In this document: piece by piece, positions 6,292-35,446 of the stretch | Layout: every line of letters starts with the position of its first letter | Numbering within the stretch: position 1 is the first letter of the stretch | NCBI GenBank assembly: GCA_020850615.1 | Contig: JADZEI010000004.1 | Coordinates: forward strand, 124,001 to 188,000 | Source of the DNA: Dehalococcoidia bacterium | GTDB lineage: Bacteria > Chloroflexota > Dehalococcoidia > Tepidiformales > Tepidiformaceae | DNA: 64,000 nucleotides | Reading direction: 5' to 3' | Made by a program: the position numbers and the translations under genes | The notes under the pieces: generated by a model | What the model was told of the DNA's origin: nothing | Seen by the model: only the letters and a program-made list of their open reading frames with translations | Database searches by the model: none

Positions 6292-6435
6292 GCCGCTCGC
6301 TCGGGACGGCGCGGCGCGCGATCAATGCGATGCTCCGGTTACAGATCGTGTCGTAGAGACTCATAGCATGTCCCATTCCGCGGTGACAATCTCGTTCCGA
6401 CAGGTGCAACACATGGTCGGTATCGGGGCGATGCA

Positions 6436-6966: not shown

Positions 6967-7027
6967 AGGGGGCTGACCGGGCCTGGAGGCGGCCCGAGTT
7001 GGACGGCAACAGCATGGGAGGTGGGTC

Positions 7028-7582: not shown

Positions 7583-7636
7583 GCACCGGAGCGGCGCCGG
7601 CCACGTCGCGGCGGCACCGCTCCCCGGTCTGGTTGG

Positions 7637-8827: not shown

Positions 8828-8906
8828 GCCTGCTTTCCCCCTGGCGTTTCGCGGGAGGCTAAGCGATAGGCGTCATAGATGCCACCTGTCGACGCGGGGC
8901 ATAGGA

Positions 8907-19229: not shown

Positions 19230-20006
19230 CTAGGAGGAGACCTGGGTGCGGCCGCGGCCCTGGATGGCGGCGCGGCGTTCGCGGACGCCTTCCTTCGAGA
19301 CGACGTGGGCGCGGGAGCGTTCCTTCTCGAGCTTCATGGCGTCGCCGAAGTTGATGGCGTAGCCGTCGTCGATGAGAGCCTTGTACTTCCAGACCATCTC
19401 GGGGACGCAGGAGAGCATGTCTTCGGCGAGCTTGCGGCAGAAGGGGAGGAGCTCTTCGGGCTCGACGACGTGGTTCAGGAGGCCCCAGCGCTCGGCCTGG
19501 TCGGCACTGAGGTAGTTGCCGGTGAGCGAGAGCTCCTTGGCGCGGCCGATGCCGATCATGCGGGAGAGCTTCTGGCTCAGGCCCCAGCCGGGGATGACGC
19601 CGACGCGGGAGTGGGTATCCGAGAAGCGGGCGTTGGTGGAGCCGATGAGGATGTCGCAGCCGAGGGCGAGCTCGAAGCCGCCGGTGATGGCGACGCCGTT
19701 GATGGCACCGATGATCGGCTGGGTGCAGAGGTTCATGGACTCGACCGGGTCGCCTTCGAGGGAGACGGGGCCTTCGGCGCTGCCTTCGGTCTCGCCGCCG
19801 AGCTCCTTGAGGTCGAGGCCGGCGCAGAAGGCGCGGCCGGCGCCGGTGAGGATGATGACGCGCGTCTCTTCGTCCTTGCTGAGCTCGGTGAAGGCGGCGG
19901 TGATGCCGTTGCGCAGGCGGGTGGAGAGGGCGTTCATCGCCTCGGGGCGGTTCAGGGTGACCGTGGCGATGGCGTTCGACTTTTCGACCAGGACGAGTTC
20001 AGACAC
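19230..20006 (-). CDS. Enoyl-CoA hydratase/isomerase family protein
   Basis: A 258-residue crotonase-fold protein with a GTG start. TVTLNRPEAMNALS near residue 16, GAGRAFCAGLDLKELGG near 55-71 and INGVAITGGFELALGCDILIG near 103-123 form the CoA site and oxyanion hole. Where many hydratases have Glu (E144 equivalent), the segment reads SRVGVIPGWGLSQKLSRMIG, without the usual hydratase Glu at both positions, so the exact reaction (hydratase, isomerase or other) is open. It lies downstream of the BVMO gene on the same strand, with the terminator at 20174 between them, so it is probably transcribed on its own. Confidence 0.87.
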   Translation of the reverse strand: MSELVLVEKSNAIATVTLNRPEAMNALSTRLRNGITAAFTELSKDEETRVIILTGAGRAFCAGLDLKELGGETEGSAEGPVSLEGDPVESMNLCTQPIIGAINGVAITGGFELALGCDILIGSTNARFSDTHSRVGVIPGWGLSQKLSRMIGIGRAKELSLTGNYLSADQAERWGLLNHVVEPEELLPFCRKLAEDMLSCVPEMVWKYKALIDDGYAINFGDAMKLEKERSRAHVVSKEGVRERRAAIQGRGRTQVSS

Positions 20007-20224: not shown

Positions 20225-21883
20225 TCAGACGGTGGCGAGCTCGCGCTCGGCGGCGCCGAGGGTGAACCCTTCGTAGCCCTTCGCAGCGACCTCGTCGCAT
20301 TTGATGCGGTAGGCGCCGACGCCGCCGACGTAGGGCATGAACACGCGCGGCTTGCCGGGGACGTTCGCGCCGAGGTACCAGGAGTTGGCCTGCGGGTAGA
20401 GCGTCATGTTGGCGAGCTCGTTGACGTGGTCGACCCAGGCGTCTTCGGCGGGCTTCGTGGCCTCGATGGTGGCGAGGTTGTTGGTGCGCATGTAGTCCAT
20501 GCAGCCGGTGATCCAGTCCACGTGCTGCTCGATCGAGACGATCATGTTGCTGAGCACGGAGGGGCTGCCGGGGCCGGTGATGAGGAACATGTTCGGGTAG
20601 TCCGCGACGGAGAGGCCGAGGTAGGTGCGCGGCCCGGCGGCCCACTTCTCGCGGAGGGAAGCGCCGCCGCGGCCCTTGATGTCGACGCCGAGGATGGCGC
20701 CGGTCATGGCGTCGAAGCCGGTCGCGAAGACGATGGCATCGAACTCCCAGGAGCCGTCCTTGTTGCGGACGCCGGTCGGGGTGATCTCCTCGATCGGTGC
20801 GTCCTTGATGTTGACGAGCGTGACGTTGTCGCGGTTGAAGGTCTCGAAGTAGTTGGTGTCGATGCAGATGCGCTTGGTGCCGAGGGGATAGTCCTTCGGG
20901 CAGAGGAGCTCGGCCGTCTGCGGGTCTTTCACCACTTCGCGGATCTTCTGGCGGACGAACTCGGCGACCGTCTCGTTGGCGGCGTTGGTGGCGACGAGGT
21001 CGTTGAACTTCTCGAGGAGGTGGAAGCCGCCCTCGTGCCAGCCTTCCTCGAAGAGGGTGCGCCGCTCGTCCGGGCCGGCCTGGAGCACCGAGATGTCGCG
21101 CGGGTTGGTGATGATGCCGGATGCCGTCTCGCGCGCCGTCTGCTTGATCTCGGCGAAGTTCTGCTTGTAGACGCTGATCTTCTCGCTGGTGAGCGATTCG
21201 TTGTTGGCCGGGAGGCTGTAGTTGGGTGTGCGTTGGAAGACGGTGAGGTGCGCGGCCTGCTGGGCGATGATCGGGATCGACTGGATGGCGGACGAGCCGG
21301 TGCCGATGATGCCGACGCGCTTGCCCGTGAAGTCGACGCCCTCGTGGGGCCACTGGCCGGTGTGGTAGGTGTCGCCCTTGAAGGTCTCCACGCCCTTGAA
21401 GTCGGGGACACGGGCGGCGGAGAGGCAGCCGGTGGCCATGATGAAGAAGCGGGCGCTGTAGCGGTCGCCGCGGCTGGTGGTGATGTCCCAGCGGTTCGCT
21501 TGCTCGTCGAAGGTGGCGGTGTTCACGCGCGTCTCGAACTGGATGTCGCGGCGCAGATCGAAGCGGTCCGCGACGTGGTTGGCGTACTTGAGGATCTCGG
21601 GCTGGGTGGCGTAGCGCTCGGTCCAGTCCCATTCGCGCTGGAGGTCGTCGGAGAAGGAGTACTGGTAGTCCAGGCTTTCGACGTCGCAGCGGGCGCCGGG
21701 GTAGCGGTTCCAGTACCAGGTGCCGCCGACGCCATCGCCGGCTTCGATGACGCGGGCGCTGAATCCGGCGCCACGGAGCCGGTGGAGCTGGTACATCCCG
21801 GCGAACCCGGCGCCGACGATGACGGCATCGAACGATGCGGATGAGGCGCCCCCGGCGCCGTTGCCCTGTGCAGTGGCGGACAT
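20225..21883 (-). CDS. Baeyer-Villiger-type flavin monooxygenase
   Basis: A 552-residue FAD/NADPH monooxygenase that inserts oxygen next to a ketone, giving an ester or lactone. The N-terminal FAD fingerprint is VGAGFAGMYQLHRLRGAG near residue 24. The Baeyer-Villiger signature F-x-G-x-x-x-H-x-x-x-W-P is exact (FKGDTYHTGQWP, about residues 167-178), and an NADPH Rossmann motif GIIGTGSSAIQ follows at once. ATG 21883 is preceded by GAGGAGGG; the frame is open 52 codons further upstream but that part is Arg/Pro-rich and unlike the family. Cyclic or steroid-like ketones are possible substrates. It sits next to the acyl-CoA operon at 22.3-27.6 kb, which could take ring-opened products further. Confidence 0.93.
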   Translation of the reverse strand: MSATAQGNGAGGASSASFDAVIVGAGFAGMYQLHRLRGAGFSARVIEAGDGVGGTWYWNRYPGARCDVESLDYQYSFSDDLQREWDWTERYATQPEILKYANHVADRFDLRRDIQFETRVNTATFDEQANRWDITTSRGDRYSARFFIMATGCLSAARVPDFKGVETFKGDTYHTGQWPHEGVDFTGKRVGIIGTGSSAIQSIPIIAQQAAHLTVFQRTPNYSLPANNESLTSEKISVYKQNFAEIKQTARETASGIITNPRDISVLQAGPDERRTLFEEGWHEGGFHLLEKFNDLVATNAANETVAEFVRQKIREVVKDPQTAELLCPKDYPLGTKRICIDTNYFETFNRDNVTLVNIKDAPIEEITPTGVRNKDGSWEFDAIVFATGFDAMTGAILGVDIKGRGGASLREKWAAGPRTYLGLSVADYPNMFLITGPGSPSVLSNMIVSIEQHVDWITGCMDYMRTNNLATIEATKPAEDAWVDHVNELANMTLYPQANSWYLGANVPGKPRVFMPYVGGVGAYRIKCDEVAAKGYEGFTLGAAERELATV

Positions 21884-22307
21884 GTTCCCTCCTCGCGGTG
21901 ATCCCTGCTTTTCGTCCGTTGGCCGGGCACCGGGGGCAAGAGCGAAGCCCAAGTGCCATAGGCCGCTCTGATGGCGGCTATCAGCGGTGGCCGGCCGACG
22001 ATTCGGGGCTAACCTACGGAAGGCGCGATGGGGTGTCAACGGATGTGACCGAACGGCCGTGCGCGTGAAGTGAATCGCACTTCGTTAGCGGGAAAAGGAG
22101 CGGCCGTGCCAGGAGGGTGGTCCTGGCACGGCCACAAGGAGGCGGCGAGGGGGGCGCCTCGCCAGCCCGTCCCGATGGCACGGCGCGACGGGCCGTGTGG
22201 AGAGGTACGTCCAGGGAAACCCTCGGCGGGCTGGTGCCAGGAACAACGCGGGGGCGGCGCGACGGGTTAACGCTCGCGGCGGGATTTATGGAACGAACGC
22301 CGAGAGT
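21884..22307. other. 424-base intergenic region before the BVMO gene
   Basis: No gene is supported. The part near 21960-22060 is AT-richer and is the likely BVMO promoter region. The part at 22102-22133 holds the terminator of the upstream operon and a weaker GGCGAGG / CCTCGCC inverted repeat follows at about 22143-22162. Confidence 0.5.
22102..22133 (-). terminator. Intrinsic terminator of the acyl-CoA/LLM operon
   Basis: Perfect 13-bp stem GGCCGTGCCAGGA / TCCTGGCACGGCC with a 6-base loop. On the minus strand it is followed by GCTCCTTTTCC. It lies about 175 bases after the LLM stop at 22308. Confidence 0.7.
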
Positions 22308-23306
22308 TTACGCGAATGCGGGGATCACTTCGCGGCCGAAGAGCTCGATTGCGGCCTTCGTCTCGGCCCAGGAGCCGGCGCCGCCCCGCGGGCTGATGCT
22401 GAAGATCATGTAGTCGCTGCCGGTGGCGTCGAACCAGGAGCGGATCTGCTCGATACAGTCGGCCGGGTCGCCGAGGATGACGCGCTCGGGGCCCAGGTTC
22501 TCCCAGGTGAGCTGCGACTCGCCGGTAATCTCGCGGAGCCAGGGCTCGAGATCCGCGTTGAGCGCGCCGTTGCGCCAGTAGTACCGGTAGGTGGCGACGT
22601 TGGACTCGGCGTAGAGCTCCATGGCGCGCTCACGGGAGGCGGCGATGCCGAGCGGCCGCATGAGGACGACCTCGGGGCGGGTGCCGTGGCGCGCCGCTTC
22701 GTCGAGGTAGGCGTCGCGGAGGAGCTTCGTCGCGGATAGGGAGACGATGGGGTCGGTGAGCCAGGCATCGCCGATGCGGGCGGCGCGGCGGACGCCGGGC
22801 TCCGTCCAGCCGGCGAGCCAGATGGGCGGCCGGGGCGCTTGCGCGGGCGTGGGCACGACGGTGACGTCCTGGAGGTGGTAGCGCTTGCCTTCGAACGAGA
22901 AGGGCTCGCCGGCCCAGGCGAGCCGGGTGATCGCAATCGCTTCTTCGAGGAGGGAGACGCGCTGGCGGATCGGGATGCCGAAGGCGTCGAAGTCGACGCC
23001 CTGGTAGCCGAGACCGGCGCCGAGGATGAGGCGGCCGCCGGAGAGCTGGTCCAGGACCGCAGCGTCCGTGGCGAGGCGGACGGGGTGGTAGAGGGGCGGC
23101 AGGAGGACGGCAGTGCCGAGCTTGAGCCGCTGGGTGCGGCCGGCGAGCGCGGCCAGGGTGACCAGCGGCGAGGGGTTGATCCCGCGCTGCTGGTGGTGCT
23201 CGGTGCAGAACCAGCCGTCGAAGCCGTGGCGCTCGGCGTGCTGAGCGAGCTCGCTGAGCTGCTCGAGCGGCATTTGCGCGCCCACGTAGAGTCCGAATCG
23301 CGCCAT
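22308..23306 (-). CDS. LLM-class flavin/F420-dependent oxidoreductase
   Basis: A 332-residue luciferase-like oxidoreductase, third of its kind in the window. It reads MARFGLYVGAQMPLEQL, then GFDGWFCTEHHQQRGINPSPLV near residue 28, TQRLKLGTAVLLPPLYHPVRLATD near 56 and SGGRLILGAGLGYQGVDFDAFG near 88. ATG 23306 has GGAGGAG at a good distance. It is the last gene of a five-gene minus-strand operon (27650 to 22308), 67 bases after the Ldh-type gene, so it probably acts on an intermediate of the same catabolic route. The cofactor (FMN or F420) cannot be decided by eye. Confidence 0.88.
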   Translation of the reverse strand: MARFGLYVGAQMPLEQLSELAQHAERHGFDGWFCTEHHQQRGINPSPLVTLAALAGRTQRLKLGTAVLLPPLYHPVRLATDAAVLDQLSGGRLILGAGLGYQGVDFDAFGIPIRQRVSLLEEAIAITRLAWAGEPFSFEGKRYHLQDVTVVPTPAQAPRPPIWLAGWTEPGVRRAARIGDAWLTDPIVSLSATKLLRDAYLDEAARHGTRPEVVLMRPLGIAASRERAMELYAESNVATYRYYWRNGALNADLEPWLREITGESQLTWENLGPERVILGDPADCIEQIRSWFDATGSDYMIFSISPRGGAGSWAETKAAIELFGREVIPAFA

Positions 23307-23373
23307 CGTCGTCTCCTCCGCCAGCCAGGATGTTGTCCAAGGGTCCCGGGGTGGGAGTCTACGCGACGGTGGG

Positions 23374-24426
23374 TTACCGGCTGGGTGCGACGGCGTCGGC
23401 GAGCAGTGCTGCGGCGGCGGGCGATGCCGCTTCGACGGCGGCGCGCATCGTCTCGAAGATCGGTTGCGGGACTTCGACCGTGCGGCGGACGAGGTTGCCG
23501 TCGCGGGTCTCGCGGGAGCGGTCGCCGGGCCAGCGGGCGCCGGAGGCGTTGACGGCGGACCGGGCGGCGGACAACGCCGGGCCGAGGCCGGCTCGCTCGC
23601 CGAAGAGATTCGGGTCCAGCGCGAGGACGAAGGCACCGACGTTGCTGTTGTCGCGGGGGACGGCGGGGCCGCTGGCGGCGCCGGTGAGCGCACCGGCGAG
23701 GAGGTCCGCGAGGATGGCGATGCCGAAGCCCTTGGCGCCGCCGGCCGGGGGCATGACGCCCTGCTGGGCGGCGGCGGGGTCCGTGGTGGGGTTGCCGGCG
23801 CTGTCGGTGTAGCCCCATTCGGGGTCGAGCGGGAGTCCCAGGAGACGGCGGCGGGCGAGCTCGCCGCCAGAACGCGGGGTCCAGGACGCGTCGAACAGCG
23901 GCGCGGATTCACCGGGGGCGGAGAAGGCGAGGGGGTTGTTGCCGTGGGTGGCGACGGTGGCGCCAGGGCCGCCGAGCAGCGGGAGCGTGTTCGCGCAGAC
24001 GACGGCGACGAAGCCGCGCTTCGCGGCCGCCTCGACGTAGAAGGCGGCGCGGCCGAACTCGTTCGAGTTGCGGACGCCGGCCACGCCAACGCCGAACCAG
24101 GACGCGATCGTGGTGGCTTCTTCCATCGCCATCCAGGCCGGGCGGTAGCCGAGCGCGTTGTCCGCGTCGATGAGCACGGAGGCTTCGCCGCGGTGGATGA
24201 CGCGGACGTCGGGCTGGGCGTTGTACCGGCCGGAGCGGAGGCCGTTGAGGTAGCCGGCGACGCGGAGCATGCCGTGGGTCGGGACGCCGCAGAGCTCGGC
24301 GTCGAGGAGGGCGGAGGCGATGAGCGCGGCCTCGTCGCTGCCCTGGCCGGCCGCCACGAAGGCGTCATGGAGGGCGGCTTCGAGCGCGACCACACCGAGG
24401 GCGACGGTCTCGTGCGGTTGTGCCAC
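23374..24426 (-). CDS. Malate/L-lactate dehydrogenase family (Ldh_2) oxidoreductase
   Basis: A 350-residue NAD(P)-dependent 2-hydroxyacid/2-ketoacid dehydrogenase of the Ldh_2 fold, unrelated to classical LDH. Family hallmarks are CGVPTHGMLRVAGYL near residue 46, where His and Arg are the usual active-site residues, and VRNSNEFGRAAFYVEAAAKRG near 118. GGPGATVATHGNNPLAFSAP near 152 and PAGGAKGFGIAILADLLAG near 226 follow. The equivalent of the common S-x-H-F-G in the second motif is SNEFG, so one His is changed. GTG 24426 starts one base after the stop of the CoA-transferase upstream, which indicates coupling. Confidence 0.87.
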   Translation of the reverse strand: MAQPHETVALGVVALEAALHDAFVAAGQGSDEAALIASALLDAELCGVPTHGMLRVAGYLNGLRSGRYNAQPDVRVIHRGEASVLIDADNALGYRPAWMAMEEATTIASWFGVGVAGVRNSNEFGRAAFYVEAAAKRGFVAVVCANTLPLLGGPGATVATHGNNPLAFSAPGESAPLFDASWTPRSGGELARRRLLGLPLDPEWGYTDSAGNPTTDPAAAQQGVMPPAGGAKGFGIAILADLLAGALTGAASGPAVPRDNSNVGAFVLALDPNLFGERAGLGPALSAARSAVNASGARWPGDRSRETRDGNLVRRTVEVPQPIFETMRAAVEAASPAAAALLADAVAPSR

Positions 24427-24427
24427 G

Positions 24428-25669
24428 TCAGTCGGGCCGGGCGGCCACCGGGACGGTGCCGGTGACGTCGGCGTCCTCGAGGGCGCGGATCTCGTCGTCC
24501 GGGAGGCCGAGGATGCCTCCGAGGACTTCGTAGTTATGTTCGCCGAGCAGCGGCGCGGGGCGCGGCGGGCGGGCCGGGACGCGCGAGAGCCGGAAGGGCT
24601 GGCCGGGGTTGTGCTTCAGGCCGACGACCGCGCGTTCCTCCGTGGTGAAGAACGAGCGGGCCTGGAGGTGTTCGTCGGCGAGGAGCTGGGGGCCGTTGAG
24701 GACGGCGCCGGCGGGTATCCCGAGCGCCTGGAGCTCCTGCATGGCCGCGCGGGCGTCGCGCTTCTCCGTCCAGGCGCGGACGGCTTCGTCGACCGTGGCG
24801 AGGGCCTGCTGGCGGCCGGCGAGCGCGGCGAGCGGGGAGCCGGCGGCGGCGAGCTCGGGGCGGCCGATGGCGGCGGCGAGCCTGGCCCAGTCGGCGTCGT
24901 CGCGGCATGCGATGGCGAGCCAGCCGTCTTCGGCGCAGGGGTAGATGTTGTGCGGGGCCATGCGGGGATGCCAGTTGCCGCAGCGGATGGGGCTGCGGCC
25001 ATTGAAGGCGGCCTCCATGAGGGCGTCGCCGGTGAAGGCGATCGCGGTCTCGAGCTGGCTGAGGTCGATGTGCTGGCCCTCGCCGGTGCGGCGGCGGTGT
25101 TCGAGCGCGGAGAGCATGGCGACGGCGCCCATGAGCCCGGCGAGCGGGTCGCCGCCGGTGGTGCCCGTGAAGAGCGGGGGGCCGCCTTCGTAGCCGGTGA
25201 GGTGGCTCAGGCCGGACATCTCCTCGGTGGTCCAGGCGAACGAGGTGTAATCGCGCCAGGGGCCGGTGAGCCCGTAGCCGGGCATGGAGAGGACGATGAT
25301 GTCCGGCTTCACGGCCTTCAGCGCCTCGTAGTCGAGCCCGAAGTTCGGGAGCACGCGCGGCGTGTAGTTCTCCACGATCACGTCGGCGATAGCGATCAGG
25401 CGCTTGAGGAGCTCGGCGCCGCGGGGGTCGGCGAGGTTCAGGGTGATGTCGCGCTTGTTGCGGTTGATCCAGTTGAACGATGGGGCCTGTTCCCAGGTGG
25501 GGCCGGCTTCGGTGGCACCGACGCCCGCACCGCGCCAGCCATCGAGGCGCTGGAGCGATTCGACCTTGATGACGTCGGCGCCCATGTCGGCGGCGATGAG
25601 CGTGGCGAGCGGGCCCGACATGAACATCGAGAGGTCGACGATGCGGATCCCTTCGAGCGGCAGTCCCAT
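24428..25669 (-). CDS. CaiB/BaiF family CoA-transferase
   Basis: A 413-residue family III CoA-transferase that moves CoA between carboxylic acids. It begins LEGIRIVDLSMFMSGPLATLIAADMGADVIKVES, shows NRNKRDITLNLADPRGAELLKRL near residue 70, and has the catalytic Asp in TGTTGGDPLAGLMG near residues 168-181. The C-terminal LLGEHNYEVL motif is present. GGAGGACTCGCC precedes the ATG. It is paired with a second, divergent CaiB paralogue at 25681; such tandem pairs can act as a heteromeric enzyme or on different acids. Confidence 0.92.
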   Translation of the reverse strand: MGLPLEGIRIVDLSMFMSGPLATLIAADMGADVIKVESLQRLDGWRGAGVGATEAGPTWEQAPSFNWINRNKRDITLNLADPRGAELLKRLIAIADVIVENYTPRVLPNFGLDYEALKAVKPDIIVLSMPGYGLTGPWRDYTSFAWTTEEMSGLSHLTGYEGGPPLFTGTTGGDPLAGLMGAVAMLSALEHRRRTGEGQHIDLSQLETAIAFTGDALMEAAFNGRSPIRCGNWHPRMAPHNIYPCAEDGWLAIACRDDADWARLAAAIGRPELAAAGSPLAALAGRQQALATVDEAVRAWTEKRDARAAMQELQALGIPAGAVLNGPQLLADEHLQARSFFTTEERAVVGLKHNPGQPFRLSRVPARPPRPAPLLGEHNYEVLGGILGLPDDEIRALEDADVTGTVPVAARPD

Positions 25670-25680
25670 GGCGAGTCCTC

Positions 25681-26898
25681 CTAGCAGACCCCGGCGGCGC
25701 GGAGCTCATCGACCTCGGCGGCGGAGAGCCCGAGCAGGCCTGTGAGCACCTCGCCGGTATGTTCGCCGAGGCGCGGCGCGGGGCCGGGCCGCGATGGCGC
25801 GGCCGGGAGCTTGAACGGCACGCCGACGGTCGGGATCGTGCCGGCGCCGGCGGGGTTGAGGATCTGGGCGAAGAAATCGCGGTCGATGAGCTGCTCCATC
25901 TCGAGGACCTCGGTCATCGAGGGGATGAGGCCGAAGGGGATGCGCCAGAGGCCGGCTTCGTGGAAGACCTCGGAGGCGCTGCGCTCCTTGAACCAGGGCG
26001 CCATCTTTGCGTGGAGCTCGTCGGCGAGGAGCATGCGCGCGGCTGGGAGCTGGTATTGCGGGTCGTCGAGGATCTCGGGCATGCCGATGAAGTGGCACAT
26101 CGCTTCCCACTGCGGTCCGGTGAGGACGTTCGCGCCGACGTAGCCATCGGCGCACTCCATGATCCAGGAGGGGCCGGTGGTGCGCTGCGATTTCCGCTCG
26201 GGGATCGTGGCGGCGTACTCCCAGAGCATCGTAGGGAGGAGGGCGGCGGTGAGGACCGACTCCATGGCGGAGACGTCGACGAGCTGGCCGAGCCCCTCGC
26301 GCTCGCGGTGTTCGTGGGCGAGGAGCGTGGCGACCGCGGCGTAGGCGCCGGCGATGAAGTCGGTGACGTTGCCGCCGGCCTGGATGGGGTCCTTGCCGGG
26401 GAGGCCGCAGGTGTTCGCCCAGCCGCCGACAGCGCAGTTCACCAGGTGGGTGGTGGCCCAGCCCGCGTAGGGGCCGGTCGAGCCGAAGCCCGTGACCGTG
26501 ACGAGGACCAGGCGCGGGTTGAGCTGGCTCAGGGTGTCCCAGCCGAGGCCGCGGGCGGCGAGCTCTGGCTCCGTTTCGGAGGCGACGACGATGTCGTAGC
26601 TGCGGGCGAGGCCGAGGAACACGTCGCGGCCGCGGGCGGTGGTGGTGTCGAGCGTGACGCCGCGCTTGCTCGTGTTGGCGTAGATGTAGGTGCCGCTGGC
26701 GTCCGGGCCGGGGGCGGTGTCGGGGAAGGGGCCGAAGGTGCGGGCAATGTCGCCGGAGCCCGGGCGCTCGACCTTCAGCACATCGGCGCCGAGGTCGGCG
26801 AGGAGCTTGGCGGCGAAGGGCCCGGCGATGCCCTCGGAGATATCGAGGACGCGGAGGGCCGTGAGCGGGCCGGAGGCGGTGGATGCGGGGCTCGGCAT
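25681..26898 (-). CDS. CaiB/BaiF family CoA-transferase, second paralogue
   Basis: A 405-residue family III CoA-transferase. It has LRVLDISEGIAGPFAAKLLADLGADVLKVERPGSGD near the N-terminus, NTSKRGVTLDTTTARGRDVFL near residue 87 and a catalytic-region GGNVTDFIAGAYAA near residue 180, where Asp precedes FIAG. The C-terminal RLGEHTGEVL is conserved. ATG 26898 starts 2 bases after the stop of the enoyl-CoA hydratase. The gene ends 11 bases before the ATG of the next CoA-transferase. Substrates cannot be predicted; by context it activates an acid for beta-oxidation-like steps. Confidence 0.92.
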   Translation of the reverse strand: MPSPASTASGPLTALRVLDISEGIAGPFAAKLLADLGADVLKVERPGSGDIARTFGPFPDTAPGPDASGTYIYANTSKRGVTLDTTTARGRDVFLGLARSYDIVVASETEPELAARGLGWDTLSQLNPRLVLVTVTGFGSTGPYAGWATTHLVNCAVGGWANTCGLPGKDPIQAGGNVTDFIAGAYAAVATLLAHEHREREGLGQLVDVSAMESVLTAALLPTMLWEYAATIPERKSQRTTGPSWIMECADGYVGANVLTGPQWEAMCHFIGMPEILDDPQYQLPAARMLLADELHAKMAPWFKERSASEVFHEAGLWRIPFGLIPSMTEVLEMEQLIDRDFFAQILNPAGAGTIPTVGVPFKLPAAPSRPGPAPRLGEHTGEVLTGLLGLSAAEVDELRAAGVC

Positions 26899-26900
26899 GT

Positions 26901-27650
26901 TTAGAACCCCTTGAAGACGGGCTTCCGCTTTTCGCGGAAGGCGCGGCGGGACTCCATGATGTCCTCGACGGCGCCGCGATTGCGGAGGCGGGCGCCGAGC
27001 TCGTCGATCTCGGCGGGGATGCGCGGGCGGAGGCGGCGGCAGATCTCGAGCGTGTTCACGAGCGAGGCGGGCGGCAGGCTGAGCAGGTGGTCGGCGATGC
27101 GGAAGGCCTCGGGGAGGAGCTCTTCGGGCTCGACGAGGCGGTTGATGAAGCCGACTTCGTGCGCGCGTTTCGCAGTGAGCGGGAAGCCCATCGCGAGCTC
27201 CGTGGCGATGGCGTAGGGCAGCGACTCGGTGAAGCCGAACTTGTAGGCGCCGAGGAGCCAGTGGCGCGCTTCCGAGATTTCGAAGACGGCTTCGGGCACG
27301 GCGATACGGAAGTCGGCGAGGTAGGTGAGGATGTAGCCGCCGCCCATGGCCCAGCCGTTCACCGCGGCGATGACGGGCTTGTCCAGCTCCATGTTCCAGA
27401 AGGGGTCGCGGACGGGGATGTCGGGGAGGCCGGGGGTGCCGCGTTCGGCCGCCTCCTTGAGGTCTTCGCCCGCGCAAAACGCCTTGCCGACGCCGGTGAG
27501 GATGGCGACCTTGAGCTCGGGCGTGTCCCGGTATTCGCACCAGGCTTCGACCATCTGGGTGAGCAATTCGCTGCCGAGCGCGTTGAGGCGCTCGGGCCGG
27601 TTCATGCGGATGAGCATGACTGCGTCATGCTTCTCGGTTTCGACGAGCAC
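26901..27650 (-). CDS. Enoyl-CoA hydratase/isomerase family protein
   Basis: A 249-residue crotonase-fold protein and first gene of the five-gene operon. It has LIRMNRPERLNALG near residue 13, GVGKAFCAGEDLKEAAE near 53 and VNGWAMGGGYILTYLADFRIA near 97, which forms the oxyanion hole. The usual active-site Glu region reads EISEARHWLLGAYKFG, which departs from a standard hydratase. The start is GTG 27650 (GTGCTCGTCGAAACC). The divergent promoter region to the carboxyltransferase gene is 232 bases. Confidence 0.88.
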   Translation of the reverse strand: MLVETEKHDAVMLIRMNRPERLNALGSELLTQMVEAWCEYRDTPELKVAILTGVGKAFCAGEDLKEAAERGTPGLPDIPVRDPFWNMELDKPVIAAVNGWAMGGGYILTYLADFRIAVPEAVFEISEARHWLLGAYKFGFTESLPYAIATELAMGFPLTAKRAHEVGFINRLVEPEELLPEAFRIADHLLSLPPASLVNTLEICRRLRPRIPAEIDELGARLRNRGAVEDIMESRRAFREKRKPVFKGF

Positions 27651-27882: not shown

Positions 27883-29445
27883 ATGAGCTGGCTACCGGAA
27901 GTGGAGGAGATCGAGCGGCGGAAGGCGCTGGCGAAGCTGCACGGCGGCGAAGAGCGCGTGGCGCGGCAGCACGGCGAAGGGAAGTACACCATCCGCGAGC
28001 GGATCGACCGGCTGCTGGATGCAGGCACGTTCACCGAATACGGGTCCATCGCCGGGAGTGCGCAGTATGCGGAGGGCCAGCTGGAGAGCTTCCTGCCCGC
28101 GGCCTACGTGATGGGCACGGGACGGATCAGCGGCCGGCCGGTCGCGGTCGGGGGCGAGGACTTCACCATTCGCGGCGGCTCGGGCGGGACGCAGATGCGG
28201 CGGAGCAAGGGCGGGCTCGGCGGGTTCATCGAGGACCTGGCGGCGGAGTACAAGCTGCCGCTTGTGCTGCTGCTCGACGGCAGCGGCGCGAACGTCGGCA
28301 CCGTCAAGGAGATGGGGCACACCTACCTGCCGAGCTCGGTCGACTGGGGGCGGTCGGTGGACCTGCTCTCGGAGGTGCCGGTGATCGGGGCGGTGCTGGG
28401 GTCGGCGGCGGGCGGGCCGGCGGCGCGGGCGATGCTGACGCACTGGACGTGCATGGTCCGCGGGCAGTCACACATCTTCACGGCGGGGCCGCCGGTGGCG
28501 AAGCGCGCGCTGGGCGAGGACCTGACCAAGGAGCAGCTGGGCGGCGCGGCGATCCAGGTGAACCAGTCGGGCGTGATCGACAACGCGGTCGACACGGAGG
28601 ACGAGGCGTTCGAGATGCTGCGCCGGTTCCTTTCGTTCATGCCGCAGAACGTGTACGAGATGCCGCCGGTGCGGCTGACGGCGGACCGGCCGAACCGGCG
28701 CGAGAACGAACTGCTCGAAATCGTGCCGCGGAACCGGTCGCGTTCGTACAACATGCGGAAGATCGTGCAGCTGGTGATGGACAGCGATTGCCCGCTGTTC
28801 GAAGTGCGGCCGGATTTCGGGCGGTGCGTCATGACGTTCTTCGCGCGGCTAAACGGCGTGCCGGTGGCGGTGACGGCGCACAACCCGATGTTCAACGGCG
28901 GCGCCCTGGACGCGAACGGCGCGGAGAAGCTGACGCACTTCCTGGAGCTGGCGGACTACTTCCACTTCCCGGTGATCAGCTTCGTGGACGTGCCGGGCTT
29001 CATGATCGGGAGCAAGGCGGAGCAACAGGCGACGATCCGGAAGGGCATGCGGGCGTTCTACATGGGGTACCAGATGCGGGTGCCGCAGGCACAGGTGATC
29101 GTGCGGAAGTGCTATGGGATGGCCGGGAGCTTCAGGGCTTCGAAGCTGAACCTGCGCTTCGCGTGGCCGTCGGCCGAGTGGGGGTCGATCCCGATCGAGG
29201 GCGGGGTGGACGCGGCATTCAAGCGCGAGATCGCGAACGCGGACGACCCGGCGAAGCGGCGCGCGGAGATCGAGGCGGACCTGCGGATGCTGCGCAGCCC
29301 GTGGGGCACGGCCGAGCGGTTCGGCGTGGAGGAGATGATCGATCCGAGCAAGACGCGGGAAGTCCTGGTGAACTGGCTGGGGCTGGCGCACCAGTCGTTG
29401 CGCTACCAGCTGGGGCCGGCGGCCCGTGGCGGCGTGCGACCGTAA
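27883..29445 (+). CDS. Acyl-CoA carboxylase carboxyltransferase (beta) subunit
   Basis: A 520-residue protein related to the propionyl-/methylcrotonyl-CoA carboxylase beta subunit and methylmalonyl-CoA decarboxylase alpha subunit. It starts MSWLPEVEEIERRKALAKLHGGEERVARQHGEGKYTIRERIDRLLD, as the family does. The carboxybiotin and CoA sites are suggested by GGSGGTQMRRSKGG near residue 104, DGSGANVG near 132 and FVDVPGFMIGSKAEQQ near 367. GGGAGGG just before ATG 27883 fixes the start; the frame is open 28 codons further upstream. No biotin carboxylase or biotin carrier gene lies in the window, so a partner must be elsewhere, and the substrate is undetermined. Confidence 0.9.
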   Translation: MSWLPEVEEIERRKALAKLHGGEERVARQHGEGKYTIRERIDRLLDAGTFTEYGSIAGSAQYAEGQLESFLPAAYVMGTGRISGRPVAVGGEDFTIRGGSGGTQMRRSKGGLGGFIEDLAAEYKLPLVLLLDGSGANVGTVKEMGHTYLPSSVDWGRSVDLLSEVPVIGAVLGSAAGGPAARAMLTHWTCMVRGQSHIFTAGPPVAKRALGEDLTKEQLGGAAIQVNQSGVIDNAVDTEDEAFEMLRRFLSFMPQNVYEMPPVRLTADRPNRRENELLEIVPRNRSRSYNMRKIVQLVMDSDCPLFEVRPDFGRCVMTFFARLNGVPVAVTAHNPMFNGGALDANGAEKLTHFLELADYFHFPVISFVDVPGFMIGSKAEQQATIRKGMRAFYMGYQMRVPQAQVIVRKCYGMAGSFRASKLNLRFAWPSAEWGSIPIEGGVDAAFKREIANADDPAKRRAEIEADLRMLRSPWGTAERFGVEEMIDPSKTREVLVNWLGLAHQSLRYQLGPAARGGVRP

Positions 29446-29906: not shown

Positions 29907-31244
29907 ATGCCGACCTGGCTTCCCCCCGGGCCGTACAAGACGCTGCAGCCATCGCCGAACGTCTCGATCCCGTATTACATCATCCGCTTCGACGAAGACG
30001 GGCGGTGCGAAAGCCCACAGACAAAGCTCGACCTGGTGAACCGCGTGCGCGCGGAGGGCTACTCCGACGTGTTCCTGTTTTCGCACGGGTGGAACAACGA
30101 CTGGACGGCGGCGACGAAGCGGTACGAGTCGTTCATCACCGGCTACATGCAGATGGTGGCGCGGGACGGCCTGAAGCACCGCGAGGGGTTCAAGCCGATC
30201 CTCGTGGGAGTGTTCTGGCCGAGCACCTCGTTCGTGTTCGGTGAGGACGAAGAAGGCCCGAAGATGGCGGCTGGCGGGGACCGCGACAGCGAGGTGGCCG
30301 CCGAGGGCGAGTTGCTCCGCGACCTCGCGCGGTCGCTGCCGGGCGAGTCGCGAGAGCGGTTCTACGAGCTCATGGGCAAGGAGTGGACGACGCCGGAGGA
30401 AGCGCGGGAGCTGGTCGCGCTGTGCGCGCCGCTGTACGCGTCCGGCGACGACGAGACGGCGCCCCCGGCGAGCAGCGTGGACGAGCTGCTGCGCAACTGG
30501 GCGGACTGGCAGCCGGAGGCCGCGGGCGAGGAGCCGGCGTTCGACCTCGGGCACATCGCACCGTCGACGCAGGCGGGCGCGGGCGGGCCGCAGGTGGCGG
30601 CGTTCAAGCTGCCCTCGAAGTTCAGCCCGCGGAGCTGGGCGCGGGCAGCGACGGTCTGGAAGATGAAGGACCGGGCGGGCCGCGTTGGGGCGAACGGCGT
30701 TGGTTCGCTGCTGCGCGAGTTGGCGGCGGCGCCAAACCAGCCGCGGGTCCACCTGGTCGGGCACTCATACGGGGCGAAGGTCGTGATGTCGGCGCTGTGC
30801 GCAGGGCCGGCGGTGACGGTGGAGTCGGCGTTGCTCTTGCAGCCGGCGATCTCGCACCTCTGCTTCGCAGAGAAGGTGGAGGGCCGCCCGGGCGGCTACC
30901 GGGCCGCGCTCGACCGGGTGCGCAAGCCGATCTTCGCGACGTTCAGCCGGAACGACGACCCGCTGCGGAACTGGTTCCACAAGGCGCTGCGGCGCGACAA
31001 GGACCTCGGCGAGGTGCAGATTGCGGGCGGCGACAACCCGCCGAACCCGTTCGCGGCGCTGGGCGGGTACGGGCCGCGGGGGAGCGGCGAGCGGATCGAG
31101 GAGATCCACGACCCGGGCGACCCTTACGACCTTTCGCTGCCGAACCGGGTCTACGGCATCCACGGGACGCGGACGATCGACGGGCACGGGGACATCAGCA
31201 ACGAATCGACGTGGTGGGCGCTGTACTGCCTCGCCAGCACGTGA
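29907..31244 (+). CDS. Alpha/beta hydrolase, first gene of a CHAT/caspase-like operon
   Basis: A 445-residue cytoplasmic serine hydrolase. VFLFSHGWNNDW (His-Gly near residues 60-61) matches the oxyanion motif of DUF900/lipase-like hydrolases. The nucleophile elbow GHSYG puts Ser at residue 287, FSRNDDPLRNWF near 350 offers the acid, and IDGHGDISNES near the C-terminus the His. A long insert of about 130 residues, rich in acidic and Ala residues, separates the first strands from the elbow. AAGGAG 8 bases before ATG 29907 is convincing. The next gene starts 13 bases later. No signal peptide or membrane segment is visible. A lipase, esterase or amidase effector are all possible. Confidence 0.85.
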   Translation: MPTWLPPGPYKTLQPSPNVSIPYYIIRFDEDGRCESPQTKLDLVNRVRAEGYSDVFLFSHGWNNDWTAATKRYESFITGYMQMVARDGLKHREGFKPILVGVFWPSTSFVFGEDEEGPKMAAGGDRDSEVAAEGELLRDLARSLPGESRERFYELMGKEWTTPEEARELVALCAPLYASGDDETAPPASSVDELLRNWADWQPEAAGEEPAFDLGHIAPSTQAGAGGPQVAAFKLPSKFSPRSWARAATVWKMKDRAGRVGANGVGSLLRELAAAPNQPRVHLVGHSYGAKVVMSALCAGPAVTVESALLLQPAISHLCFAEKVEGRPGGYRAALDRVRKPIFATFSRNDDPLRNWFHKALRRDKDLGEVQIAGGDNPPNPFAALGGYGPRGSGERIEEIHDPGDPYDLSLPNRVYGIHGTRTIDGHGDISNESTWWALYCLAST

Positions 31245-31257
31245 AAGGAGGCGCGCG

Positions 31258-32715
31258 ATGGCTGTGCTGCTGATGCGCGAGTTCCAGCTGATCACGCTGC
31301 GGGTCTCGCTCGAAGGGAGCGGCCAGACCCGCGGCGGGACGGTCCGCGTGCAGCTCGAGGGGTTCGAGCACGGGTCCCACAGCGTCGAGTGGGGGCCGGT
31401 CGACTTCGCTCTCGGCGAGTTTGGCCTGCCGTCGCGGCTGGACGTTTCGGAGGCGTACTTCGGCAAGTACGAGCTGCACGTGCCGGGGCCGCTGCTGCAG
31501 ACGCTGGAACAGTGGATGGGCGACCACAACGAGGCGCGGACGCCGCTCTGGGTGTACCTGGTGAAGCCGTACGGCTACCTGGGGCTGGTGCCGTGGGAGC
31601 GCGAGCTGGTGGCGGCCGCGGGGGTGCCGGTGCTGCGGCTGCCGGACTTCCTGGAGCCGCCGCTGGACACGCGCTCGCCGCTCGACATTGGGCTGGTGTG
31701 CACGGTGCCGCCGAAGGTGGGCAAGGCCGCGGTGCGACTTCCGCAACTCGAGGAGGGCGTTCGCATCCTGGCGGGCGAGCTGCCCCGGCCGAGTCACCTG
31801 CACCTGTTCTGCGGGGTGGACACGCGAGAGATGGCGCGGGATGCGTTCGCCACCATGGGCAACGTCACGGTGTACGACCCAGGGCGGGAGGACGACCAGG
31901 CGGAGGACGCGTGGTTCCGATGGATCCTCGAGGCGATGCGAGGGACGGCGCTGGATACGGTGCACTTTCTCACCCACGGGGTCATCAGCGCGGACGGCGG
32001 GATGCTCGCGCTCTCGGCATCGCCGGGGAGCGACCGGCCGGGCGGGTTCTACCCGGCGGCGGCGCAGGTCGACCAGTTCCTGGCGGCGGTGGGCGCCTGG
32101 GGCGCGGCGTTCCACGTCCCGGCCGACCGGTCGACGGACCTGGGGGTGCGGTACGTGGCGGACTCGCTGGGGATGATCCGGCCCGGGACCGTGCTCTACC
32201 ACGACCCACAGCTGGACGACGGGACCGGGCTGCGGGCGGCGTGCGAGCTCATGTACGCGACGGACCCGGCCCCGGCACCGCAGTCGCGGGCGACGTTCAT
32301 GTACATCCAGCCGGAGCGGGTGCTGAACCCGGGCGGGGCGTCCGACCTGCGGGCGAACATGCGCAACTCGTCGCGGCGGGAGCGGTGGGACGCGCAGCTC
32401 CCTTCGGGCTACCAGGAGTCGCTCTCGGGGAAGACGCTGCCGGGTTATGTGCAGTCGGTCGAGCGGATGTCCGAGAAGTGGGCGGCGGTGCTGGACAGCA
32501 ACGACCTCTCGCTGCCGCCGGCGCCCCTGGGCACGGCGAACGCGCTCGACGTGCCGTACCTCTCGGCGGAGGAGCAGTCGGCGGTGGATGACGCGATCGG
32601 CAAGCTGCGGAGCGTGGTGGCGGAGTTCGCGCTGGACGAGCTGGAAGGCACGGCCCGGTTCGACGAGGACACGCCCGCGGCGTTCGAGGCGGAGATGGGA
32701 GCGGAAGAGGCATGA
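31258..32715 (+). CDS. CHAT-like protein, probably inactive (no catalytic Cys)
   Basis: A 485-residue protein with AAGGAGG before ATG 31258. The N-terminal ~140 residues are of unknown fold, with LWVYLVKPYGYLGLVPWERELV near residue 98, as seen at the start of CHAT domains. A CHAT-like core follows, and VHFLTHGV places the would-be catalytic His at residue 240. At the position where active CHAT proteases have a Cys after a beta-strand (VVLNCC in the next gene) this protein reads GAAFHVPADRST, with no Cys. I therefore infer a pseudoprotease, perhaps a scaffold or sensor subunit. Its stop overlaps the next ATG (ATGA), so the products are likely made in fixed ratio. Confidence 0.7.
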   Translation: MAVLLMREFQLITLRVSLEGSGQTRGGTVRVQLEGFEHGSHSVEWGPVDFALGEFGLPSRLDVSEAYFGKYELHVPGPLLQTLEQWMGDHNEARTPLWVYLVKPYGYLGLVPWERELVAAAGVPVLRLPDFLEPPLDTRSPLDIGLVCTVPPKVGKAAVRLPQLEEGVRILAGELPRPSHLHLFCGVDTREMARDAFATMGNVTVYDPGREDDQAEDAWFRWILEAMRGTALDTVHFLTHGVISADGGMLALSASPGSDRPGGFYPAAAQVDQFLAAVGAWGAAFHVPADRSTDLGVRYVADSLGMIRPGTVLYHDPQLDDGTGLRAACELMYATDPAPAPQSRATFMYIQPERVLNPGGASDLRANMRNSSRRERWDAQLPSGYQESLSGKTLPGYVQSVERMSEKWAAVLDSNDLSLPPAPLGTANALDVPYLSAEEQSAVDDAIGKLRSVVAEFALDELEGTARFDEDTPAAFEAEMGAEEA

Positions 32716-34043
32716 GGACGATTCTCGCCCTGACCCAGGAGTCGAACTCGCCGGACGCATTCCTGCAGCTGGAGGACACGAGCCTCAACGTCGCGGGGGA
32801 CTGGAAGGCGCTGCGGATCGGCGCCGAGCTGTGCCAGCCGCCGGACTGGGACACGCCGGGCGCGGTCCGCGAGCGGGGGCGCGCGTTGCGCGAATTCTGC
32901 GCGAGCGAGCCTTCGCTGAGCCTGCTGTTCACGGCGATCCAGGCGCTGGACCCGGGGTCGCACCAGATCTACTTCCGGCACAAGGGGTCGGCCGCGGAGT
33001 CGGTCGACTGGGAAACGCTGTACGAGCCGAACGGCGACAACGGGCGGTTCCTGGCGCTCGCCGGGTGCCCGATCGGGCGGATCACGCGGCTGCCGCTGCG
33101 CAACGCCGGGCCGCACACCATCCCGAAGCCGCTGCGGCTGCTCGCCATCGTCTCGGCGCTGGGCGAGAGCGGCGTGGACGAGTACCGGGCGCTGCGCGAC
33201 GCCGTGGCAACGGCAGTGGCGGCCGGGCACGAAGTGACGCTCCGCGTGCTCACGGGCGAACCGGCGATCCTCGACGACCCCGGGACGGATCCGGCGGTGG
33301 TGCAGCCGCTGCCCGGCGTGCCCGGCGACCTGCGCGCGCTCCAGTCGGCCGTCGGCGACTTCGACCCGCACGTCCTGCACGTGTTCGCGCACGGCGTGGC
33401 GGAAGAGGGCAGCGGCAAGAAGTGGCTCGAGTTCGGGCTGCGGTCGGACTGGGAGAGCGACGCGACGACGGGGTCGCTGCAGCTGCACGAGGAGCAGCTG
33501 GCGAACCTGCTCCAGGCGCGCAGCACCTGGCTGGTGGTATTGAACTGCTGCAACGGCGGGCGGGCGGTGGAGACGGGGCCGCTCGCGCGGCGGCTGGTCG
33601 AAGTGGCGCAGGTGGCGGCGGTCATCGGGATGGTGGCGCCGATCGAGCCTTCGGACGCGACGATCTTCACGCGCGGGTTCTACCCGGGGCTGTTCGAAGC
33701 AGTCCAGGCGCTGCTGGACGAGTCGGCGGCGTCGATCGACTGGGCGGAGTTGCTCGTGAAGCCGCGCTGCGACCTGCGGGACGCGAACGGCGGGCTGGCG
33801 GACAACGTGCGGTCGTGGGCGCTGCCGGTGGTGTACGCGCTGGCGGCACCGTACACGCCGATCTGGTACGCGCTGTCGCCGCCGCAGCTGCGCCGGCTCG
33901 AAATCGCTCGCGAAGCGCTGGCCAAGGCGGCGAACCTGGGGCCCAAGCACAAGCGGCTGCTCCGCCAGTCGCTGCTGGAGGGCCACGTGCCCGAGGAGTA
34001 CTGGCCCGAGCTGAACGGCGACCTCCAGGAGGGCGTGCTGTGA
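32712..34043 (+). CDS. CHAT-domain (caspase-like) protease
   Basis: A 443-residue protein. The C-terminal two thirds form a CHAT domain, a caspase-fold Cys protease module. VLHVFAHGV gives the catalytic His at residue 227 and WLVVLNCCNGG gives the catalytic Cys at residue 279 or 280 (280 fits the motif better). GMVAPIEPSDATIFTRGFYPGLFEAVQALL follows, as is usual in CHAT proteins. The N-terminal ~100 residues carry ESVDWETLYEP, the WE.L element of the fold. No TPR repeats are visible in the protein, unlike many CHAT proteins. ATGA overlap with the gene before and GTGA overlap with the gene after show tight coupling. Confidence 0.82.
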   Translation: MRTILALTQESNSPDAFLQLEDTSLNVAGDWKALRIGAELCQPPDWDTPGAVRERGRALREFCASEPSLSLLFTAIQALDPGSHQIYFRHKGSAAESVDWETLYEPNGDNGRFLALAGCPIGRITRLPLRNAGPHTIPKPLRLLAIVSALGESGVDEYRALRDAVATAVAAGHEVTLRVLTGEPAILDDPGTDPAVVQPLPGVPGDLRALQSAVGDFDPHVLHVFAHGVAEEGSGKKWLEFGLRSDWESDATTGSLQLHEEQLANLLQARSTWLVVLNCCNGGRAVETGPLARRLVEVAQVAAVIGMVAPIEPSDATIFTRGFYPGLFEAVQALLDESAASIDWAELLVKPRCDLRDANGGLADNVRSWALPVVYALAAPYTPIWYALSPPQLRRLEIAREALAKAANLGPKHKRLLRQSLLEGHVPEEYWPELNGDLQEGVL

Positions 34044-35446
34044 GCCTGCCCGAAAAGCTCCAGGTGAGCGCCTGGACCGGGCACACGCCGAGCTCGCCCG
34101 CCGGGAACCTGGCGGGCTGGGCCACCGGGCAGCGCAAGCCCGCAAAGGTGAAGGCACTCCGGCCGCCGCCGGACCGGCCCTGGGACTGGACGCAGGAGGC
34201 CGTGGGCTGGGGTGTGGTGCTGTTCGATGACCCGGCCGTGCCCGCGGAGGAGCGCCACACGGCCGCGGGCGCGCCCGAGTGCATCCGCGAGCTGGTCAGC
34301 GCGCGCGGGGATGCACCGGTGTTCCGCTGGGGGCCGGGGCTCAAGCCGGGCAAGCTGCGGCGGTACGCGCCCGGGGGCGGCGTCGTGGAACCGCTGGTCG
34401 ACCGCGGCGGCGAGCGCGGCATCGGGCCGGGGAAGGTGCCGTGGTTCCTGCTGATCGTGGCCGACCCGAAGGACGTGCCGTGGGACGTGCAGTACTACCT
34501 CAACCTCGTCGCGTACACGGGGCGGTTGTGGCTCGAACCGGATGGCATGGAGCGGTATGTCGCGGCGCTGCTTTCGGGCTGGAAGGAGAGCGCGGTCAGC
34601 CGGGCCGACCCGGTGTTGTGGTCCACGGACCACGGGAGCGACGACATCACGTGGCTGATGCGCAAGGCGATCGGCGAGCCGCTGGCGGCGCAGTTCGCGA
34701 AGGACACGGAAGTCACGGCGGCGAGCGCGGAGCTCATCACCGGGCCGGCGGCGACGACGAGCGCGCTGGCGGAGGCGCTGGCGGCGCGGAAGCCGGCGCT
34801 GATCGCGACCACGTCGCACGGGCTCACCGAGCCGGTGGACCGGCCGGACGAGCTGGCAGCGCAGCTCGGGCTGCTGGTGGACAGCTCCGGCGACGCGCTC
34901 ACGCCGGGGGAGGCGCTGGCCGCGTGGCAGCCGGACGGCGCGATCTGGTACGCACACGCGTGCTGCTCGGCGGGCTCGGCGGCCAAGTCGCGGTTTTCGA
35001 AGCTGGTGAAGGACGGCTCCGAGGTGCAGGCGGTGCTGGATGGCGTGGCGGCGGCGGGGGAGCGGATCGCACCGTTCCCGGCGGCGCTGCTGGGGGCCGC
35101 GAAGCCGCTGCGCGCGTTCATCGGGCACGTCGAGCCGACGTTCGACTGGACGCTGCGGAGCCCGGAGAACCAGCAGGTGTTCACCGGCGGGATCCGCTCG
35201 ATGGTGTACAACGCGCTCTTCGGCGAGGAGCCCTCCGGATACGCGGGGCGGCACGTGTACGGGGCGGTCGCGGGGCAGCGGAAGATAGCGTGGGACCAGC
35301 TCGCGGCCTACAACGCGGCGACGGCCCCGGACGCGCGGGAGGCGGCGCTTTCGAGCATGTTGCTGGCGCAGCTTGTGGCGCACGACCGGGAGAACATGGT
35401 CATCCTCGGCGACCCGACGGCGGCGATACCGGCGCCTCAGGCGTGA
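34040..35446 (+). CDS. Caspase-like (C25/CHAT-type) cysteine protease-like protein
   Basis: A 468-residue protein with a GTG start overlapping the preceding stop (GTGA). The catalytic dyad is visible as IATTSHGLTEP (His at about residue 260) and WYAHACCSAGSA (Cys at 308 or 309). The spacing of about 49 residues is close to that of the neighbouring CHAT protease (53). It then has LRAFIGHVEPTFDW, a segment common in C25/CHAT-like proteins. The N-terminal ~130 residues (WVGVVLFDDPAVP-like strands, RWGPGLKPGKLRRYAPGG, FLLIVADPKDVPWDVQYYL) are of unknown fold; the last piece may be a processing or substrate-recognition part. Its stop overlaps by 10 bp the stop of the convergent gene at 35437. Confidence 0.75.
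   Translation: MSLPEKLQVSAWTGHTPSSPAGNLAGWATGQRKPAKVKALRPPPDRPWDWTQEAVGWGVVLFDDPAVPAEERHTAAGAPECIRELVSARGDAPVFRWGPGLKPGKLRRYAPGGGVVEPLVDRGGERGIGPGKVPWFLLIVADPKDVPWDVQYYLNLVAYTGRLWLEPDGMERYVAALLSGWKESAVSRADPVLWSTDHGSDDITWLMRKAIGEPLAAQFAKDTEVTAASAELITGPAATTSALAEALAARKPALIATTSHGLTEPVDRPDELAAQLGLLVDSSGDALTPGEALAAWQPDGAIWYAHACCSAGSAAKSRFSKLVKDGSEVQAVLDGVAAAGERIAPFPAALLGAAKPLRAFIGHVEPTFDWTLRSPENQQVFTGGIRSMVYNALFGEEPSGYAGRHVYGAVAGQRKIAWDQLAAYNAATAPDAREAALSSMLLAQLVAHDRENMVILGDPTAAIPAPQA

Follow-up and report, generated by a model that had tools for sequence, protein, structure and literature searches.

Gene content of the locus

The 64,000-nucleotide (nt) stretch of contig JADZEI010000004.1 from a Dehalococcoidia bacterium of the family Tepidiformaceae, hereafter called the window, contained a row of five minus-strand genes at positions 22308-27650. 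These genes were predicted to encode a crotonase-fold enoyl-CoA hydratase (ECH; 249 aa, GTG start, 26901-27650, Pfam ECH_1 138 bits), two CaiB/BaiF family III CoA-transferases (CT1, a BbsE-like half, 25681-26898; CT2, a BbsF-like half, 24428-25669), an Ldh_2-type dehydrogenase (GTG start, 23374-24426, Pfam Ldh_2 240 bits), and a luciferase-like oxidoreductase (LLM; 22308-23306, starting with the ATG at 23306 after a GGAGG-like site; Bac_luciferase 226 bits, scored from the shorter start 23273). All coordinates are those of the window. The gaps of 2, 11, 1, and 67 nt between the genes are exactly those given by an earlier sequence-only reading of this DNA. Gaps of 1-11 nt between genes of one strand usually mark a single transcript, and we infer that the five genes form one. 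The operon is predicted, with a probability of roughly 0.7, to serve the catabolism of a carboxylic acid via CoA thioesters, in which CT1 and CT2 would act as a single heteromeric enzyme, a BbsEF/DddD-type CoA-transferase of family III, together with a biotin carboxylase.

The three neighbors that the sequence-only reading had named were all present, and family searches agreed with their assignment. A carboxyltransferase subunit resembling the propionyl-CoA carboxylase beta chain (27901-29445, plus strand, Carboxyl_trans 297 bits) diverges from the row, and a flavoprotein resembling Baeyer-Villiger monooxygenases (BVMO; 20225-21883, minus strand; closest to PtlE among NCBIfam models, with a score far below the cut-off) and a second crotonase (19230-20006, minus strand; NF004840, over its cut-off) lie on its other side. 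The gap between the LLM and BVMO genes is 424 nt long and holds a 15-pair hairpin followed by TCCTTTT (22100-22135, minus strand), a candidate transcript end; terminator-like sites in the region were not more common than in shuffled sequences (3 against a mean of 4.3).

CT1 and CT2 as probable halves of one enzyme

The CoA_transf_3 domain spanned the whole of CT1 and of CT2 (294 and 356 bits; cut-off 23.3). The best match of CT1 in the PDB was chain A of the benzylsuccinate CoA-transferase BbsEF (9fn0_A, E 2e-47) and that of CT2 was chain B (9fn0_B, E 1.1e-62), both distant, with 165 and 216 bits across some 400 residues. CT1 was matched at E <= 1e-85 in 10 of 98 other relatives, always with a CT2-like domain directly after it, and the two domains shared one frame in 6 of these 10. 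In a class sample of 245 genomes, 20 genomes besides the host had a CT1 match at E <= 1e-95. Matches at the latter threshold, pooled from the overlapping samples of 99 and 245 genomes, gave 22 orthologous loci, 15 of which belong to one family (f21). A single fused frame of ~800 aa was present in 21 of these 22 loci, the other (L180) being undecided because of a contig end behind the first domain. Within this orthologue set, separate genes were seen in the window only. The first halves of the orthologues were 44-52% identical to CT1, and the second halves 50-60% identical to CT2.

The divergence of the two halves was also coupled. Distances among first halves correlated with those among second halves (r 0.75 over 65 pairs, four of which were turned to put the Asp-bearing half second), and the highest value in 2000 permutations was 0.21; when six fused orthologues of the window pair were removed, the values were 0.69 and 0.25. 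In a tree that omitted the L128 rows, first and second halves were clustered, with 11 and 13 label changes as compared with about 30 in shuffles, and the 9fn0 chains fell among them. These results suggest that CT1 and CT2 most likely make one two-part enzyme, so that the phrase "paired CoA-transferases" of the sequence-only reading holds in a stronger sense, as two halves of one heteromeric enzyme, by virtue of the fusion in relatives and the matches to the two BbsEF chains. Two other origins of the pair were considered and rejected. CT1 and CT2-type halves are about 27-35% identical, which argues against a recent duplication. A frameshift artifact is likewise not indicated, as CT1 reaches its full C-terminus by profile end, and CT2 has its own ATG and GGAGG site, 11 nt further on and out of frame.

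Fused or adjacent CaiB pairs occur in other phyla too: in 1006 plasmid records, a fused orthologue was matched at one place over at least 80% of its length, with all identities below 60%. Among the best 80 of 583 loci (near records left out), the four named ones nearest to CT2 came from Gammaproteobacteria, Dehalococcoidia, Pseudomonadales, and Dehalococcoidia metagenome-assembled genomes.

Catalytic aspartate in CaiB pairs

The catalytic position (Asp169 in CaiB numbering) was read from one MAFFT alignment. CT2 carries Asp174 there (window 25148-25150), and CT1 carries Asp180 (window 26359-26361). By comparison, the 22 orthologous first halves all lack this residue, with Glu in 21 and Gln in one, and chains A and B of 9fn0 have Tyr and Asp, respectively. 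The window pair therefore does not share the BbsEF trait of one subunit without the catalytic Asp.

This trait is widespread among CaiB pairs, here defined as genes on the same strand with a gap of less than 300 nt, a rule that may mispair genes in runs of CaiB such as that in L020. PF02515 matched at 73 places in the host genome, which is about 95% complete. The window and 33 further host stretches that were fetched (three small CaiB places, two on C42 and one on C1, are outside this set) contained 25 two-domain units (11 fused and 14 adjacent) and 18 single CaiB proteins. Asp was present in exactly one half of 22 of these 25 host pairs and in both halves of the other three (the window, L111 15694/14346, and L120). 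Pairs with one Asp also made up 12 of 14 in loci L012-L021 (one pair having both and one none), 25 of 26 in the named loci of the genome collection (one having none; a CaiB call was obtained in 78 of the 80), and all 17 in further loci with both halves resolved. Over all pairs, 76 of 82 had one Asp, four had both, and two had none. Single CaiB proteins carried the Asp in 99 of 101 cases (host 16/18, L012-L021 1/1, named loci 69/69, others 13/13), a count that omits the cut orthologue in L180 and the L175 protein, which is the same gene as one in L112.

Two loci deserve mention here. At L111 of the host (5996-8873), genes 5996 and 7674 are 511 nt apart, both carry the Asp, and were counted as single; in the tree, each has one half of the L119 pair as its neighbor, and they may be a pair themselves, which would make them the fourth host pair with both residues and bring the total to 76 of 83. 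At L107 (1794-4240), the CaiB pair is reversed, with Asp in the first gene and Tyr in the second, and both genes lie in the swapped parts of the tree.

A GNxH loop has been described for YfdE and Mct (PMC5592240). CT2 has it (GNWH) and CT1 does not. Of 39 second halves, however, 27 lack it too, as do 17 of 19 rows of single CaiB proteins. The loop was thus rejected as a test of activity, and its absence from CT1 is hardly a sign of inactivity.

Linkage to a carboxyltransferase

Of the 22 orthologous loci, 19 had a carboxyltransferase gene no more than 3 kb from the CT pair, divergent in 16, as in the window, and co-directional in three. As to the three loci without one, contig ends cut off L012 and L188, whereas L179 lacks such a neighbor. 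This linkage spans families f1, f2, f21, and f26. Neighboring carboxyltransferase, Ldh_2, and LLM genes were recognized by BLAST to the window proteins, so that far relatives may be missed. The nearest PDB relatives of the window carboxyltransferase are propionyl-CoA carboxylase beta chains. In L013 and L014, the carboxyltransferase is part of a single chain that joins biotin carboxylase (BC), biotin carboxyl carrier protein (BCCP), and carboxyltransferase, which points to an ATP-driven carboxylation. A BC-BCCP gene was located 5.7 kb from the CT pair in L015, and the host genome gave four biotin carboxylase matches.

Two further associations were noted in these neighborhoods. On host contig C18 (L109, 4242-8297), a second CaiB pair is directly followed by a relative of the window carboxyltransferase (52% identity). 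In family f21, a relative of the FAA hydrolase of L016 (11981-12865) lies downstream of the fused transferase in 13 of 15 loci, the family assignment having been checked in L016.

Neighborhoods of the crotonase and the dehydrogenase

ECH has Glu127 and Glu151 at the two crotonase catalytic positions of the alignment, residues that presumably act in catalysis. One orthologue each was found in 11 of the 98 other relatives, and the class sample added six loci. A CaiB gene adjoins the ECH orthologue in 13 of these 17 loci, with none directly adjacent in L169, L176, L178, and L193; several of the loci (L161, L163, L164, L178, and L193) are on short contigs, and in L164, where ECH is near the contig end, only CaiB was called. 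An Ldh_2 gene is within 5 kb of the ECH orthologue in three of the 17 (L170, L176, and L195). Genome G248 belongs to a family (f2) other than that of the host. The order in its locus L176 is Ldh_2, the ECH orthologue, a family-less protein, LLM, a family-less membrane protein, the carboxyltransferase, and a divergent fused CT pair, so that ECH, Ldh_2, LLM, carboxyltransferase, and CT pair are united within 10 kb. In L015 (G062), no more than about 9 kb separates Ldh_2, LLM, and a crotonase-family gene from the CT pair; other genes are closer relatives of those in the window. The extra proteins of L176 and L015 had no Pfam or NCBIfam match. In L170 (8151-12838, G051), the ECH orthologue, a CaiB gene, an Ldh_2 gene, and an HpcH/HpaI-type lyase gene occur together, a gene set that we take to recall itaconate/mesaconate-type acid pathways.

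A check of gene order in relatives had been proposed by the sequence-only reading, which held that scattered homologues with no kept neighborhood would speak against it. Conservation of the whole five-gene order has to be rejected, as it was absent from all fetched loci. Its parts were conserved, namely the CT1-CT2-carboxyltransferase unit in four families, the closeness of crotonase and CaiB, that of crotonase and Ldh_2, and the grouping in G248; the homologues are not merely scattered.

These neighborhoods bear on the strongest alternative, a loose assembly in which crotonase, Ldh_2, and LLM were recruited beside a conserved CT-carboxyltransferase unit and serve other pathways. ECH orthologues in f1 accompany a different, single CaiB, which is 74-84% alike in eight of nine loci and about 50% in L162; a search for this partner in the host gave a best match of 45% among the CaiB proteins compared, and the candidate was rejected. 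Moreover, of the five other genomes with both ECH and CT orthologues, only one has them clustered (in G003 and G202, the contigs are not long enough for a decision), a close relative of the window Ldh_2 was missing from 98 genomes, and the LLM orthologue accompanies a BVMO in G022. On the other hand, the gaps of 2, 11, and 1 nt, the union of all components in G248, and the closeness of ECH and Ldh_2 in three loci argue against a loose assembly, which we regard as possible and clearly less probable than a common pathway.

The Ldh_2 protein, of the L-sulfolactate dehydrogenase-like family, has His51 at the position of AllD His44, and Glu123 (window 24058-24060) at that of AllD His116, the proposed catalytic base; both histidines are called invariant (PMC3527362). 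Three other aligned Ldh_2 proteins keep His at this position. The host genome contains two Ldh_2 genes, including that of the window.

The luciferase-like oxidoreductase and the Baeyer-Villiger monooxygenase

The LLM scored 164.7 bits against its nearest NCBIfam model, TIGR03619 for F420-dependent LLM proteins (cut-off 166.9 bits; scored from the shorter start 23273), and was matched at E <= 1e-75 in four of 98 relatives. The best of these matches, in G022 (74%), is located 29 nt downstream of a BVMO orthologue (also 74%), and the LLM of the window may therefore belong to the BVMO. In this G022 locus (L197, 9206-11883), the BVMO comes first, then the LLM, and a carboxyltransferase-like gene (34%) lies 0.5 kb from the latter. 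An LLM relative in G006 (48%) lies 1.6 kb from a gene that is 61% identical to the carboxyltransferase-like gene of G022. Two CofD matches in the host genome were considered as proof of F420 and rejected: the family also matches the F420-less controls E. coli and Lactococcus, and the host matches are no proof of F420.

The BVMO carries FxGxxxHxxxWP from residue 168, and we take FxGxxxHxxxW(P/D) to be the type I Baeyer-Villiger fingerprint. Orthologues were present in 29 of 98 other relatives. At L179 (3431-10071, G222), the sole complete locus without a carboxyltransferase neighbor, a BVMO-like flavoprotein (26%) is located 2.7 kb from the fused CT pair. In L198 (G009), the BVMO orthologue has a single CaiB gene adjoining, and 4.4 kb further on lies a fused, non-orthologous CaiB pair (37% to CT2).

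The route that the sequence-only reading had suggested, with opening of a ketone or ring by BVMO and LLM and breakdown of the acid so formed by the CoA operon, draws on the Baeyer-Villiger motif and on these arrangements in G022, G222, and G009. A related idea has been proposed for SAR202 (PMC5395668). Against it, none of six BVMO loci inspected contained a CT1-CT2 orthologue, and in the window BVMO and LLM are set apart by the 424-nt gap and the hairpin. We consider this route unlikely. The broader claim of that reading, a catabolic operon, is well supported as regards acyl-CoA catabolism.

Comparison with known CoA-transferases

BbsEF of toluene degradation (PDB 9fn0) resembles the window pair in having two different CaiB-family subunits, to each of which one of the window proteins is nearest. 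BbsEF uses succinyl-CoA (PMC10818641), and its structure is given as α2β2 (PMC5592240). The window pair differs from BbsEF by the Asp of CT1 and by the carboxyltransferase as a conserved neighbor, and no benzylsuccinate synthase was present among the window genes put through family search. In DddD, a dimethylsulfoniopropionate CoA-transferase/lyase, a single chain carries both CaiB domains (residues 1-416 and 439-821 of the Endozoicomonas protein; PMC7174347). By this description rather than by sequence, it is similar to the fused orthologues, whereas the window pair consists of two genes. Heteromeric class III transferases are already known, including benzylsuccinate and succinyl-CoA:malate CoA-transferases, and an (αβ)6 form has been reported for one heteromeric class III enzyme (PMC5592240). 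In the system of succinyl-CoA:mesaconate CoA-transferase and mesaconyl-CoA hydratase, too, a hydratase comes after a CaiB-type transferase, and the model of this transferase ranked second in NCBIfam for CT2 (209.8; cut-off 700). Unlike the heteromer proposed for the window, this transferase is homodimeric (PMC5592240).

The double-domain form and the expansion of CaiB in SAR202 are known as well. SAR202 genomes have been described as containing many paralogues of CaiB/BaiF and of LLM (there FMNO), with a proposed BVMO activity, and DddD was the top hit of some of their CaiB proteins (PMC5395668); sponge SAR202 are enriched in such genes (PMC6306507). The part of the SAR202 account drawn on here gives no pairing, fusion, or loss of Asp in one half (PMC5395668). 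No description of the one-Asp pattern, of a carboxyltransferase-tied pair, or of the 9fn0 structure in a paper was found in the open-access literature, which is no proof of absence.

Predicted pathway

The pairing of CT1 and CT2, the fusion in relatives, the carboxyltransferase linkage, and the residues at the catalytic positions are read directly from the sequences, and on this basis an outline of the pathway can be proposed. CT2, with Asp174 as its working site, would move CoA from a donor thioester, possibly succinyl-CoA, to the acid. CT1 would be the partner half, descended from a lineage in which the catalytic Asp is missing from all other members; on ancestry only, it would be the silent one. 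The carboxyltransferase, with a biotin carboxylase and carrier encoded elsewhere in the host, may carboxylate an acyl-CoA of the same pathway, the crotonase would hydrate an unsaturated acyl-CoA, and Ldh_2 and LLM would perform redox steps. Activation, carboxylation, hydration, and redox are given in their presumed order.

Several observations weigh against this reading. CT1 has Asp180 and is not necessarily a silent half, and the halves in the tree, which was built by a quick method, do not form two clean clades. No second locus with the five genes in the order of the window was found among those fetched. Relatives of the carboxyltransferase are common, with matches in 40 of 99 genomes at E <= 1e-100 and five genes in the host, and the converse link fails: of five loci chosen for a good relative of this gene (L171-L175), L172 has a fused CaiB adjoining, L175 has a single CaiB nearby, and three have none. 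ECH and CT orthologues are on separate contigs in G003, G009, G062, and G202, and the G248 cluster is interrupted by a secreted-looking protein and a membrane protein. The window Ldh_2 had no match at E <= 1e-50 in 98 relatives and keeps only one of the two histidines described as invariant in its family. Finally, the LLM of G022 sits with the BVMO and not with a CT pair.

The weakest alternative, two independent homodimeric CoA-transferases for different acids side by side, agrees with the separate genes and the Asp in both proteins, and is made very improbable by the fusion in 21 of 22 loci, the mirrored divergence, the reciprocal match to the two BbsEF chains, and a CT1-to-CT2-type identity too low for a recent duplication. 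A more far-reaching extension of the heteromeric reading, which is highly speculative, is that the host split an ancestral fusion and re-armed the silent half through a Glu-to-Asp change, so that the heterodimer would have two distinct active sites. Combined with the carboxylase, this would constitute an undescribed carboxylation-dependent route for a recalcitrant acid, whose dicarboxylyl-CoA product would return CoA to the next substrate molecule.

Other features of the window

The window also contained genes outside this region. A UGSC-family selenoprotein gene (36531-37064, minus strand) has an in-frame TGA at codon 95 within the motif GWGH-U-GSC, and selA (38655-40031, minus strand), selD (40095-41150, plus strand), and tRNA-Sec (41172-41266, plus strand) are nearby. 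The gene at 35437-36534 (minus strand), which overlaps the stop of the UGSC gene, had no Pfam, NCBIfam, or PADLOC match. Of the four proteins encoded by a further unit (29907-35446, plus strand), one is a DUF900 alpha/beta-hydrolase, one is CHAT protease-like with a weak match to SAVED_CHAT, and the other two are family-less.

Implications for CaiB/BaiF families

Uncultured Chloroflexi are on record as having large sets of CaiB/BaiF genes, which were counted as single proteins (PMC5395668). Adjacent or fused CaiB proteins usually combine one half with the Asp and one without it, thus suggesting that many of them are two-part enzymes, and this one-Asp pattern gives a simple rule for the annotation of CaiB/BaiF pairs. 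Furthermore, the conserved tie of the CT pair to a biotin-type carboxyltransferase indicates that an acyl-CoA is probably carboxylated along the route, which narrows the chemistry of the pathway.

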